Shown here: positions 10,448 through 16,213 of the stretch, piece after piece | Numbering within the stretch: the first letter of the stretch is position 1 | Layout of the letters: every line of letters begins with the position of its first letter | DNA from: Spirochaetales bacterium | GTDB taxonomy: Bacteria > Spirochaetota > Spirochaetia > UBA9216 | Direction of reading: 5' to 3' | NCBI GenBank assembly: GCA_016839055.1 | Contig: JAEKNX010000016.1 | Location: 1 to 64,000 of the forward strand | DNA length: 64,000 nucleotides | Program-made: the position numbers and the translations under genes | Notes under the pieces: generated by a model | What the model saw: only the letters and a program-made list of their open reading frames with translations | Told to the model about the DNA's origin: nothing | The model's database searches: none

Positions 10448-11296
10448 CTATAATACGGCTTGCTGAATCAGCTTTATCCATTCATCCCCATCTTCCGGTA
10501 TAAACTTCATTAAAAATCCGCCCTGATGGTTGAAAATAGTTTCAGAAGGTCTGCACCTGGAAAAATCAACCAGCTCATGGCCCGAATCGGTACGGTAGAA
10601 GGTCTGGACACCCGGTTGTTTATCATCAAATGATAATATGGCAGAGATGTTACTCTCTTCAACTACCTCAGTAATTGCGGAACGCAGGGGGGACACCAGA
10701 GCTGAAGGCGGTTTTATCAAATAATTCAGAATATTCAATTTCTCGATCTTAATAATTTCGACATGTCCGGTTTCTTTGAGCCATAATACGGCTTTTGCTC
10801 TATCTGTTTCAAACTTGATTTTATCTTCCAGTCCTGCCGTAAAGATTTTAAGGATAAGTATGGGATCTTTTTCAAAGGTTCGGAGTAGTATTTTATGGCT
10901 GAACGACAGGTAGTCACGGCTTTCACCTATAAGATTAAAATCATTTAAACTCATGGCACCTTTGGTATCAACTCTGGATACCAGCATGATGAAATTATGA
11001 AGATCTGTGCCGATTAATCGGGGAAATAATTCATTAAACAGAAGAAGGGCCGCGCTATCGAGCTCTCTGTCCTGATGGTGATCATAGAGTTTTCTCCTGC
11101 CGTCATATACCATTCCGCAGTCGATGAAATAAGTATCATCTGGAAGGTTTTCCTCTCTTGCCATATTAGCCGCATCCTGAGAATCCATCCTTTCGATGGA
11201 TTCCGGCTCCTCCTCAAGATAGAGGGATAGCAGGGCTGATGCCAGCAGTTCATCCATATGTGCTTTTCCGTTATGAGTTATTATTTTGTAGGGCAC
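10448..11296 (-). CDS. MYG1/UPF0160 family metal-dependent hydrolase (DHH-like nuclease)
   Basis: A 282-residue protein matching the MYG1 family: THNGKAHMDELLASALLSL at the N-terminus, the YFIDCGMVYD segment, and YDHHQ giving the DHH signature around residue 85, all metal-binding residues of this phosphoesterase-related fold. The eukaryotic member is an RNA 3'-5' exonuclease; bacterial roles are undefined. I place the start at GTG 11296, preceded by AAAGGAG at ideal spacing; family members start close to this position. It is convergent with the helicase gene, with 11 bases between stops. Confidence 0.82.
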   Translation of the reverse strand: MPYKIITHNGKAHMDELLASALLSLYLEEEPESIERMDSQDAANMAREENLPDDTYFIDCGMVYDGRRKLYDHHQDRELDSAALLLFNELFPRLIGTDLHNFIMLVSRVDTKGAMSLNDFNLIGESRDYLSFSHKILLRTFEKDPILILKIFTAGLEDKIKFETDRAKAVLWLKETGHVEIIKIEKLNILNYLIKPPSALVSPLRSAITEVVEESNISAILSFDDKQPGVQTFYRTDSGHELVDFSRCRPSETIFNHQGGFLMKFIPEDGDEWIKLIQQAVL

Positions 11297-11486
11297 AATT
11301 TTCTCCTTTATATAGCCTCTGCACCTTACCATAGAAGAAATGTTTGAGCCACCCTGTCATTTTTTGAGTTTATCCGGTTAATTCTGCAGCTTAGCATCGC
11401 CGATGTTTTTATCTGATTGCTGGGTATGTATATAAATACTGGTAAAATCCACTTTGACATATTACAATTAAACAAAGGAGCAGCCC

Positions 11487-12875
11487 ATGATAAAGAATGA
11501 AGCCGATCCGGTAAGAATTCCCAGCGGTACAGTTCATCGGCTTATAAGCCTGCTTCAGGGAGCTCTTACCCTTTTGAAAGTTGATATTGATAATAATACA
11601 ATCGAGCATATTGGGGTCATGGTTCACCGGGCAATGAGTATGCAATACCGGAGTTTTCACACGCCCGAACACATCTTCGATCTTGCAGATCCCTCGGACG
11701 CGCACAGCACACTTGCGGCAATTTTTCATGATATCGTCTATTTTCAGGTCGATGACGGTTTTCATAAAGAGATTGAAGAGATTTTAAAGCCGTATATTTT
11801 GATTGATAATAATACGATAAGTATTCGTAAAAAGATCAGGGACACTGACAGGGCTTTCCATGGAACAGCGGCCATATTCGGATTTAAAGAGGGACAAATT
11901 CTCTCTCCCTTCGCTGGTCTTAATGAATTCTTAAGCGCTCTGCTTATGAACTCTTTATTGGGAGACAGGGTGAAGGATGTTGATCTTCTTATAGCCACCG
12001 CAGAAATTGAAATGACGATTCCGTTCCGTACTCCTGATAAAGAAGGCCGTTTTCCCGCAGAAATCCTTGATATTCGATTGCGGAAGACAAATGCGAAATT
12101 CAGCCTGGGGCTCACGGACGATCAGATAGGTCGTGCAGTTGTTTCTGCGGTCATCATGTCTAATCGTGATGTACATAATTTTGCTGAAGAAGATCCCGCG
12201 CGATTTCTTGATAATACCTGGAAGCTTCTGCCGGAGAGTAATCCGGAACTTCATTTTCACGGCTTATATACAATTAAGAGCTACTCCACGGCCCTGATGA
12301 AAATGGAAGGTTTCCTGACTCACCTGAAACCAGAGACAGTATTTCAGCAGTATAAGGCTTACCCTGAACAATCCGAGTATGATGATTTGATTAAAAAAAC
12401 GTCTTCAAACTTGATAATAGCCGGAGGCTATCTGGGCATCAAGATGATCAGCGCCGCAATCCTCCTGGCCTTGGCGGAAATGTCAGGAGGCGATGCTCCT
12501 ATGTCGTTTTTTATGGGAGAAATAAATCCGGCGGATGAATGGAGCCGTCTTACAACCCATCTGCCGGGCACTCCGGATTGTCAGCATGAACGTAAGAATG
12601 TTTTATACCGGCTGCTGAAGCACGGCCGCTCGAATTCTTCAGACTTTGACCTCCAGAACTCACCGCTGTCGCTTTTTATTTACTGTAGTCTCGATGAGCA
12701 GCAGCAGGAAGATTGTATCAATGTCTCCAGGGAATTAATAAAAGGGGAACGCAGCGCCCATTCATATATGGACTCGATTCCCGGACGCCTTGTTAAGCCC
12801 ATAGCGCAGGCTGCATCTGTAATTGCTTTTACGAGGCAGCAGCGCCTTCTGGAAATTTCTGAGTCATTCAGCTGA
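11487..12875 (+). CDS. Uncharacterised protein with HD-like N-terminal domain
   Basis: A 462-residue soluble protein, start supported by AAAGGAG. The N-terminal 110 residues contain YRSFHTPEHIFDL and AAIFHDIVYFQVD, resembling the H...HD metal-binding pattern of HD-type phosphohydrolases; a further region to residue 270 is helical and includes SNRDVHNF. The C-terminal 200 residues carry no motif I recognise. It may be a nucleotide or small-molecule phosphohydrolase. It stands between the divergent MYG1 gene and a convergent MFS gene, so it is probably monocistronic. Confidence 0.55.
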   Translation: MIKNEADPVRIPSGTVHRLISLLQGALTLLKVDIDNNTIEHIGVMVHRAMSMQYRSFHTPEHIFDLADPSDAHSTLAAIFHDIVYFQVDDGFHKEIEEILKPYILIDNNTISIRKKIRDTDRAFHGTAAIFGFKEGQILSPFAGLNEFLSALLMNSLLGDRVKDVDLLIATAEIEMTIPFRTPDKEGRFPAEILDIRLRKTNAKFSLGLTDDQIGRAVVSAVIMSNRDVHNFAEEDPARFLDNTWKLLPESNPELHFHGLYTIKSYSTALMKMEGFLTHLKPETVFQQYKAYPEQSEYDDLIKKTSSNLIIAGGYLGIKMISAAILLALAEMSGGDAPMSFFMGEINPADEWSRLTTHLPGTPDCQHERKNVLYRLLKHGRSNSSDFDLQNSPLSLFIYCSLDEQQQEDCINVSRELIKGERSAHSYMDSIPGRLVKPIAQAASVIAFTRQQRLLEISESFS

Positions 12876-12888
12876 AGCCCCGGCTCCG

Positions 12889-14139
12889 CTACTTCTTTAC
12901 GGGCCCTGAGATAATATTAGCTATGATGGTAATAAGCAGAAATCCGCCTGATATAACAGCAAGCGCCGGACCTATCCCCGAGAAATCAGCTATAACTCCG
13001 AATGTCATCGCAATAGCCGCTGTCAGAACAGTCTTAAGCTGGGACTGGATTGACAGAACCGATGTAAGTACCGAGTTGTCTACGGAATCTGATACATAAC
13101 CTGTTAAAACAGGCTTTCTTATGTTCTCGTTTATATAGATGAAAATAAAGAAGATTATTGCAAGATAGGGAAGATGGGCAGTATAAAAGACTCCGCTCAG
13201 AAGTCCGGCGGACAATCCCGCTGCAAGGGTTACAAGTGGAATGTTTTTTAGTCCCGATTTTTCCAGCCTGGATGAATTCTGCGACGCCAGTGAGGTAAGC
13301 AGGAAGATGAAAAAATAGATGAGGCCGATAAGAAGAGCCGAGCGCTGTTCCTTGGTCTTCTCCGAGAATAATGGGAGAAGGATAACGAGGGAGACCATCA
13401 TGGGCTGAATATAGTCCTTCATGGCTTTCAGGTAGGCTGTATGAAGGGCTGAATTGTTAATCAGTCTTAGAGTCTTTCCTGTTTTCAGCATTTTCCATGA
13501 GGTTGCAAGAACTTCCCTTAGCTGAGTTTTTTTACTTTCAGGCTTCCCTGCAATGCTTTTATCTAGAGCATTCGGATAGGAGAGGATGAGAAAGAAATTC
13601 ACAAGGAAGGGAAATATGGAAAACAGAAAGATATTATTATAGTTTCCAGAATAGAAGACAATGAATCCCGCGGCAATGGAGGACAAGGCCAGTCCCCTCT
13701 GAGACCAGGCTCTTGTGTGGCCGTAGTAGTTAACCATCTGCTCCTTAATGTTATTCGCCCTTAGGTACTCGGCAATCATCCCTTTATGGGTTCCGGAGCG
13801 GAAGGCTTCTCCTACGCCATAGAATAAGAATGCCAGCATTAAAAGGCTGTAGCTGCTGAAGAAATAGAACAGGATGAAGGAGATAATATAGGCTATAAAG
13901 GAGGCAGCAAGGCTTTTCTTTCTTCCCAGAACATCTGCGGCTATGCCTGAGGGAATCTCCAGTATATTGGTCGTAACCTCTCTGACGGCGTACAGGACTC
14001 CTATGGCCGTAAAGGAAAGTCCCTTTTCCATCAGGGAGAGGATCAGAAAGGCCTCGAAGAACTGAAGGTTCTTTAAAAAACCATAGGCACAGAATTTATA
14101 GTATTGTTTGTCAGTCTTAATATTCTCTGCCTTTCCCAT
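12889..14139 (-). CDS. MFS transporter
   Basis: A 416-residue major facilitator with about 12 hydrophobic segments. The loop between segments 2 and 3 has the family signature GIAADVLGRKKSL, and GVGEAFRSGTHKGMI fits segment 4. The substrate cannot be read from sequence; drug or metabolite efflux is a common role for this group. It ends 13 bases from the convergent HD-like gene and follows the cyclase gene on the same strand by about 50 bases. Confidence 0.82.
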   Translation of the reverse strand: MGKAENIKTDKQYYKFCAYGFLKNLQFFEAFLILSLMEKGLSFTAIGVLYAVREVTTNILEIPSGIAADVLGRKKSLAASFIAYIISFILFYFFSSYSLLMLAFLFYGVGEAFRSGTHKGMIAEYLRANNIKEQMVNYYGHTRAWSQRGLALSSIAAGFIVFYSGNYNNIFLFSIFPFLVNFFLILSYPNALDKSIAGKPESKKTQLREVLATSWKMLKTGKTLRLINNSALHTAYLKAMKDYIQPMMVSLVILLPLFSEKTKEQRSALLIGLIYFFIFLLTSLASQNSSRLEKSGLKNIPLVTLAAGLSAGLLSGVFYTAHLPYLAIIFFIFIYINENIRKPVLTGYVSDSVDNSVLTSVLSIQSQLKTVLTAAIAMTFGVIADFSGIGPALAVISGGFLLITIIANIISGPVKK

Positions 14140-14189: not shown

Positions 14190-15910
14190 TCACTCAAGAG
14201 AAAAGAGCGTTATTGGGTGGGATTTGCCCCTGACAGTTACAGGCTCATTCTTTACAGCTGTGATTTCTTTGAGATAATCATCTGCCAGATGATTTAAGGT
14301 TGATTCACTTATCAGGATATCTGTTTCATACACCTTGGTCTGACTCTCAATTCTGGATGCGACATTCACCGTGTCGCCAATAACGGTATACTCTTTCCGG
14401 TTTTCCGATCCAACATTTCCGGCAATTAAGAAACCGGTATGAATTCCAATTCCATGACGGATGGGAGGATATTTCCCTGAAGCATTAAACTCTATCAATG
14501 CTTCACGCATAGCAAGGGAAGTCCTAACAGCTGCTTCGGCATGATCCTTCAATCCAAAGACGGGGGAAAACACTGCCATAATACAGTCTCCGATAAATTT
14601 GTTTACAACACCCTGATTCTTGGTGATGTGGTGCACCATATGGGAAAAATAGTCATTTAAAAATCTATCAGCTCCCGGGGGGTGTATCCTTCACTTAGAG
14701 AAGTAAAACTCCGAATATCTGCGAACATGACCGTCGTTTCGATCTCTTCACCTGAGAGATCAATCTCATTTGTATCGATGAGTTTTCGGGCAATTTCGAT
14801 TGATACGAACTTTCCGAAGATATTCCGGAGTTTTTCACGTTCCTCCAGTCCTTCGACCATGGTATTGAAGTGTCCTTTTAGATTCCCGATTTCATCAGAG
14901 GATAGAACTGAGGTTCTTATAGAAAAATCGCCCTTTGCTACCATCTGCATCCTCTCTATTAGAATATTGATGGGGCCCTGGATATTCCTTCGGAAGGAAA
15001 ATATTGATGAAAGCTGGGCAACAAGGAAAAACAGATTGACTATGGTTGTGATCATCAAAGGTCCGAGGATCTGGCCTACAGCAAGAAGGTTTACATCTTC
15101 CTGCAGAAATATTGATCGAAACATCCATGAGTTGAAAACCGCCGGAATATATACACTCAAAATCAGGGGGATCATCCCCATTGAAAGCATTAGAAGCAGC
15201 ATCCTGGTGGTCAGGTTCATTGTAATCCCATTTTTCAGAGTATGCAGCTGATGATTCCTGAATATCTGACGGGCAATACCGTTGTTGATATACCTTGTTG
15301 TGTACCAGGAATTAATGAAACCTGCCAGGCTTCCGTACATAATAAATGAAGCAATATAATTGGCTGTTATCTGCCCGTTCAATGGGTAACCTGCCAGGCT
15401 GCGGAATCCAAGTTTTAAAATAAGACCCCAGAGTCCGGCTATCCAGGGAATAATGAAAAGGAAGGTCGGCAGGTTCAGAATGCGCCTGATGATTCGCTCA
15501 TCCGCTTCTCCTTTGCCTTTGAAATTGTATTTGTAAACCGGCCAGAGCCAAATAAGCATCAGGAGCAGGAGGATGCCTACCGGGTGACGGGTGCGGTACA
15601 GGAGGTACTGTTCTTCCAGTTTCTCATCAACTGTCTTATCATCCTCGCTGCCGAACTGATCGAGAAACTGGTTCTCCAATGTCTGTCCGGTCTGGTTCAT
15701 TTCCCGAGATGATGGGCCCTCTATATGTTCTTCCGAAAAGAAGGCCTGAATTTTATCAGAATTTTCTTTCACAAACTGGGCCAGGTCTTCGAAGGGCATA
15801 TTTGAAAAATGCTCAAAAAAACCGGAAAGCATAGCACCCATCAGCAATGAGAAAAGAAATGAAAGATAGAGGGGCAGAAAAAGTTTTCTCATAAATTGAC
15901 GAATTTTCAT
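14190..15910 (-). pseudogene. Class III adenylate cyclase with membrane sensor and HAMP, frameshifted
   Basis: One gene in two frames. From ATG 15910 (AAGGAG upstream) the first part codes for 417 residues: a membrane segment (about 10-30), an extracytoplasmic loop of about 80 residues, roughly five more membrane segments, a HAMP domain (about 325-380) and the start of a class III cyclase domain (MFADIRSFTSLSEGYTP). It stops at 14657. The -1 frame continues directly with LNDYFSHMVHHIT and KFIGDCIMAVFSPV, then NVASRIES, giving both metal aspartates, the adenine-selecting Lys and the transition-state Asn/Arg. The break lies in a T5 run (14659-14663 as A on the + strand): one T is missing. It may be a real mutation, a sequencing error, or slippage on U-UUU-UAA. 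Confidence 0.85.
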
Positions 15911-16213
15911 ACTATACTCCTTGCTTCTTGGACTATTATAGTCTTTCATTGCCTGTTCCGCCACTGAAAACAGATTATTGCAGCAATTCTGAATTTGACT
16001 GCAATTCCCCCGAATGTCGGCACTTGCTGACCCCGACACCATCAGAAAAAGATTATCGATCGGGGAGTAATTAAGTGGGAGGGATAATATTGACGATAGA
16101 CAAAGCCTGGAAGGTTAACATTTTGTTATATTTGCTATTTCCGGGATATTCTTATTTGCTATCAGAACAATCTTGTTTATATTAAATTCGATAAACTGAA
16201 ATGAGGTTTTACA

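Follow-up and report, generated by a model that had tools for sequence, protein, structure and literature searches.

A class III adenylate cyclase gene of a Spirochaetales bacterium interrupted by a one-base frame break, probably a recent lesion

Results

A cyclase gene divided between two reading frames

The window, a 64,000-nucleotide stretch of contig JAEKNX010000016.1, carries on its minus strand a class III adenylate cyclase gene whose coding sequence is split between two reading frames (Table 1). The gene start looks intact, given the AAGGAG before its ATG at 15910. The upstream (N) piece, with a membrane region recognised by eye as hydrophobic stretches, ends in FADIRSFTSLSEGYTPRELIDF, the last residues before the stop codon, with YTPRELIDF at the C-terminal end of the product. 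Across the break the minus strand reads GAT TTT TAA ATG ACT ATT, confirming the initial annotation of a cyclase broken at a run of five T residues with a stop codon in the ribosomal A site. The same annotation placed the rest of the cyclase domain in the -1 frame, and this holds: the frame encodes FLNDYFSHMVHHITKNQGVVNKFIGD across the junction, stays open down to 14190 and matches the catalytic domain profile PF00211 from position 55. This downstream (C) piece scores 70.7 bits against PF00211 (curated cut-off 21.9), whereas the N piece alone gives no match to the profile at E 0.001. No single open frame thus holds the complete PF00211 domain, the TAA closing the first frame and the remainder lying in the -1 frame. 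A scan for promoters and terminators returned consensus matches only, none bearing on the break.

Table 1. Features at and around the interrupted cyclase gene (window coordinates)
Feature	Position	Strand	Basis or remark
MFS transporter	12889-14139		flanks the cyclase gene
C piece in the -1 frame: remaining class III cyclase domain, PF00211 positions 55-179	14190-14669	-	Pfam, E 1.5e-19
Frame break: T5 run (14663-14659) overlapping stop TAA (14659-14657)	14657-14663	-	sequence and orthologue alignment
N piece in the 0 frame: membrane region, HAMP, first part of class III cyclase domain, ending PRELIDF TAA	14657-15910	-	ORFs, Pfam, alignment to the orthologue L033
Shine-Dalgarno-like GGAG inside the PREL codons	14672-14675	-	sequence
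HAMP domain PF00672, N-piece residues 306-357	14840-14995	-	Pfam, E 1.9e-10
Shine-Dalgarno-like AAGGAG, 6 bases upstream of the ATG	15917-15922	-	sequence
BRCT-domain protein PF00533, 299 aa	16214-17113	+	Pfam; flanks the cyclase gene

Taken together, the two pieces presumably contain the catalytic residues expected of a class III cyclase (two Asp, Lys/Thr, Asn and Arg). We take the Asp of the FADIRSF motif to be the first of the two metal-binding aspartates; it is located in the N piece, upstream of the break, and because of this neither piece alone has a complete catalytic domain. The earlier statement that all catalytic residues downstream of the break are intact therefore stands for the class III residues as we know them, but does not extend to the first metal-binding Asp, which on our assignment lies on the other side. 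Among solved structures, the C piece is closest in sequence to CyaB (3r5g, E 3.3e-21), which, unlike the present gene, is intact.

Separate translation of the two pieces, reassembling as a two-subunit cyclase, would find a candidate start in the first ATG of the -1 frame (14639), 17 bases past the stop codon. This ATG is preceded by TTTTTCCCAT with no Shine-Dalgarno-like sequence, however, the split falls inside the catalytic fold, and none of 39 homologous cyclases is organised in this way, making this the least credible of the readings considered here.

An intact orthologue places the break at two codons

A search with the 300 N-terminal residues in 394 genomes drawn from the class gave clear matches only in the genome itself (G000) and in one other, G255 (E 3.2e-41, 32%). 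The G255 orthologue (L033, 1381-3213) is a single uninterrupted open reading frame of 610 aa with HAMP and PF00211 domains, and is the only close intact orthologue found. The N piece is identical to it at 183 of 424 aligned columns (43%), in an alignment that runs to orthologue residue 454, and the C piece (60% identity) aligns from residue 454 onwards; the alignment therefore pins the frame transition, residue for residue, to the F and L codons. It is the only break seen over about 574 codons, with no second one elsewhere in the cyclase gene. As in a frameshifted pseudogene, the homologous protein can be followed past the break in a second frame and has an uninterrupted counterpart elsewhere, and the frame break is not due to chance.

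Wider searches gave more distant matches. A two-row profile of the present gene and its G255 orthologue yielded two marginal matches in the class (E 3.8e-5 and 9.5e-4), and a phylum sample of 392 genomes yielded three beyond the genome itself (E 1.6e-4 to 6.6e-4); none of these five was used. Two Cytobacillus matches in a collection of genome contigs were restricted to residues 262-356 and 313-356, and a plasmid search for orthologues returned 12 partial matches.

The T run is not shared by homologues

The 39 homologous cyclases comprise 30 from other genomes and nine from the genome itself, after exclusion of four loci belonging to the window itself and five off-target ones (L034, L035, L046-L048). 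A run of five or more T residues across the two break codons occurs in none of the 39, the G255 orthologue included, which reads TTT CTC AAC at this place; one homologue (L043) has T5 and T6 runs, in frame, elsewhere in the 12-codon stretch shown. Similarly, none of 39 relatives of the C piece on viral contigs has such a run at the codons aligned with F and L, and in five of these 39 a T5 follows in frame a few codons further on. Judged by these alignments, only one of which involves a close orthologue, the slippery run lacks conservation. A comparison of orthologues at the run had been proposed as a check on recoding, and its outcome, so far as a single close orthologue allows, argues against frameshifting.

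The viral-contig relatives (L086-L124) match the catalytic half of the cyclase at 33-43% identity, and many of them have an open frame of more than 450 aa upstream of the site; the contigs are members of a viral collection by label. One of them, L118 on contig IMGVR_UViG_3300003937_000254 (approximately 930-1300), encodes a distant class III cyclase with a frame break of its own near the equivalent position: one frame ends in GFTPISEFYKP and a stop, and another goes on with NPEGLVVLVNEFLDEMTN. It has no T5 at the aligned codons, and its break is probably an error or a lesion.

Programmed frameshifting is poorly matched by the site

The initial annotation raised the possibility that regulated frameshifting switches the cyclase on. 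In such a scheme tRNA-Phe would slip back from its UUU codon onto the overlapping -1 UUU with UAA in the A site, and a regulated amount of full-length enzyme would be made. The geometry of such a slip works at this site, the downstream half is not clearly decayed (see below), and the spacing of the GGAG, 9 nt upstream, is within the 6-17 nt used in a study of E. coli frameshifting motifs (PMC4066793). Against this, the site is a bare U_UUU tetramer followed by UAA rather than an X_XXY_YYZ heptamer, and the 83 bases after it show no more folding stability than shuffled sequences (z +0.41); 12 other downstream windows gave z values from -1.53 to +1.22, none clearly better than shuffles. The GGAG itself is part of the PREL codons, and a Shine-Dalgarno-like sequence accompanies 163 of 993 T|TTT sites (16%) in 227 sample genes. 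The run is moreover absent at the break codons from all 39 homologues. UAA is a stop codon read by both release factors and, to our knowledge, is not a favoured shifty stop. In the E. coli data as described, Z_ZZ.N motifs without a stimulator gave a mean of 0.147% frameshifting versus 0.112% for their counterparts without a motif, and tetramer motifs definitely needed a strong stimulator (PMC4066793). Lacking heptamer, structure and conservation, programmed frameshifting was rejected as the main reading, and we regard it as highly improbable. A weaker version, in which tRNA-Phe would slip by -1 at U_UUU only at a low level, with UAA awaiting a release factor, letting through a trickle of full-length cyclase and making the cAMP output of this gene track termination efficiency, has the evidence against it and seems to us just as improbable.

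Transcriptional slippage would call for a long A or T run and the present one has only five residues; for comparison, selection is described as showing at runs of nine across a large share of genomes (PMC1088944). Among the titles and abstract openings of the literature found on cyclases with programmed frameshifting, or with phase variation and homopolymers, no such cyclase was evident.

Two well-characterised kinds of site bring out the same differences. In dnaX a Shine-Dalgarno-like sequence lies about 10 nt upstream of the -1 site, a likeness to the present site. dnaX-type A_AAA_AAG sites also share its -1 direction, but the heptamer, stable downstream structure and conservation are missing here (PMC5009743). 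prfB and other shifty-stop genes likewise have a stop codon in the A site directly after a codon prone to slipping, but the prfB shift is +1 at a highly conserved CUU_U before the stop, whereas the present one would be -1 at an unconserved UUU before UAA (PMC5009743).

The downstream half has little or no sign of decay

The C piece retains 24 of the 26 columns that are conserved in at least 80% of the 39 homologues, and the N part retains 10 of 12; two of the four departures (D to N in VNKFIGD and V to I in LIDF) are common to G255. Against 38 outgroup cyclases, the C piece of the window averages 0.409 identity and that of G255 0.364; the corresponding values for the N part are 0.401 and 0.406. 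Codon scoring gives 0.175 bits per codon for the C piece and a higher value, 0.282, for the N piece; the C-piece score ranks above the 5th percentile (0.151) but below the 25th (0.228) among 280 long genes sampled from the assembly. By these measures the downstream half appears to be without clear decay, slight decay being possible from the codon score. The lesion is thus either recent or not real, and such preservation would be expected as much from a consensus error as from a recent lesion.

Assembly quality and the chance of a consensus error

A wrong count of T residues in the consensus or assembly, leaving the gene intact in the organism, is a close rival to a recent lesion. The single break, the little or no decay downstream and the retention of strongly conserved motifs all accord with it, and the assembly is a draft genome of 43 contigs. 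Breaks of this kind do occur in assemblies, one of the 39 related cyclases on metagenome-derived viral contigs (L118) being frame-broken as well. A survey of 206,991 genes with predicted frame transitions, in the part drawn on here, expects singletons validated by BLASTp, as in the present case, to reflect sequencing errors and not true indels, and ascribes frameshifts confirmed by both BLASTp and Pfam to errors or to indels in pseudogenes (PMC3711429).

The rest of the genome speaks on the other side. Of 60 MFS candidates scored, 42 matches merge by tally into 34 genes, all of them in open frames of 387 aa or more and with no gene divided between frames; the assembly is therefore not visibly rich in frame errors. 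Three MFS matches were flagged with in-frame stops but have open reading frames of 415 to 428 aa, and we read these stops as alignments running past the end of the frame, which the coordinates confirm for the one on C43 only. The best 150 of 269 ABC candidates are near full length, a ranking that favours intact genes. T runs are ordinary in the 280 long genes of a 464-kb sample (458 T5, 131 T6, 31 T7 and 8 T8), and the cyclase gene itself has six further runs of five to seven, including an unbroken T7. A systematic homopolymer problem is thus not visible in the assembly, and a single error is possible; we consider this a serious but somewhat less probable explanation than a lesion.

These counts bear equally on phase variation, by which frequent changes in the length of the T run would turn the cyclase on and off within a population. 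The lesion does lie in a homopolymer, but T5 is short, the same gene has six other runs of at least this length, and T5 runs are common in the long genes of the sample, so that we give this reading slightly less credence even than recoding.

Coding-like open reading frames of at least 100 aa ending in T TTT TAA number three among 468 in the 464-kb sample, the present gene included. By eye, neither of the other two has a protein continuation in the -1 or +1 frame; after the one at 173-1112 of the window an apparently separate small gene follows in the +1 frame. An intrinsic scan of the sample for split genes was dropped, as its 260 pairs of open reading frames included many ordinary gene overlaps and cannot discriminate frame breaks.

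A redundant cyclase in a lineage-restricted neighbourhood

The genome has ten PF00211 places: the present gene, which is split, and nine others, whose open frames span 524 to 1069 aa. Six other genomes of the family were compared, three of them less than 90% complete, and neither the N-terminal region of the cyclase nor the flanking BRCT gene was found in any of the six. The MFS neighbour has relatives at 42-47% identity in four of them, and the 13-15 kb around three of these relatives held no match to other window proteins tried (eight queries). From this distribution the cyclase looks accessory in the family, which fits a tolerated loss.

Beyond the MFS gene, a 462-aa open reading frame (11487-12875, plus strand) has no Pfam family at E 0.001; its residues FHTPEHIFDL...FHDIVYF suggest by eye an HD-type phosphohydrolase. 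The protein encoded at 10448-11332 (minus strand) matches only the first 65 of the 318 positions of the MYG1 profile (PF03690).

Discussion

We posit that the break arose recently, as a one-base frameshift lesion in a gene that is redundant and restricted to its lineage and that encodes a class III adenylate cyclase with a membrane region, a HAMP domain and a catalytic domain; we give this a probability of about 0.55. It is the most likely of the explanations weighed, with a consensus error as the close rival and recoding unlikely. Of the three options offered by the initial annotation, a recent lesion and an error both fit the single break and the little decay, while regulated frameshifting finds no support. 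A recent lesion would have arisen by replication slippage at the short T run, shifting the frame by one base where the conserved F-L-N of the catalytic domain is otherwise encoded. Translation would then end at the UAA and leave a stub of membrane region and HAMP that has one metal-binding Asp but lacks the ATP-binding half, such that no cAMP would be made from the broken gene. Judging from its motifs, the intact form would probably make cAMP rather than cGMP. The loss may be tolerated because the gene is redundant and lineage-restricted.

A comparable case is known from the mycobacteria. We take the interrupted pair Rv1119c-Rv1120c to be the cyclase pseudogene of M. tuberculosis and M. bovis. 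That pseudogene is described as corresponding to a cyclase of M. avium (PMC2447327), and Rv1119c-Rv1120c is listed in a survey of interrupted coding sequences (PMC2277376). As in the present gene, so far as these sources describe it, a class III cyclase is interrupted, a relative is intact and the genome keeps other cyclases; the mycobacterial case differs in belonging to another lineage, and here one genome represents the species.

Interrupted genes of this kind are already well known, and one more gene with a single break, in a genome with several cyclases, has little significance alone. A real and regulated frameshift would represent an unusual control of a second-messenger enzyme. The case otherwise serves as a caution that a stop codon beside a T run should not always be taken as recoding.
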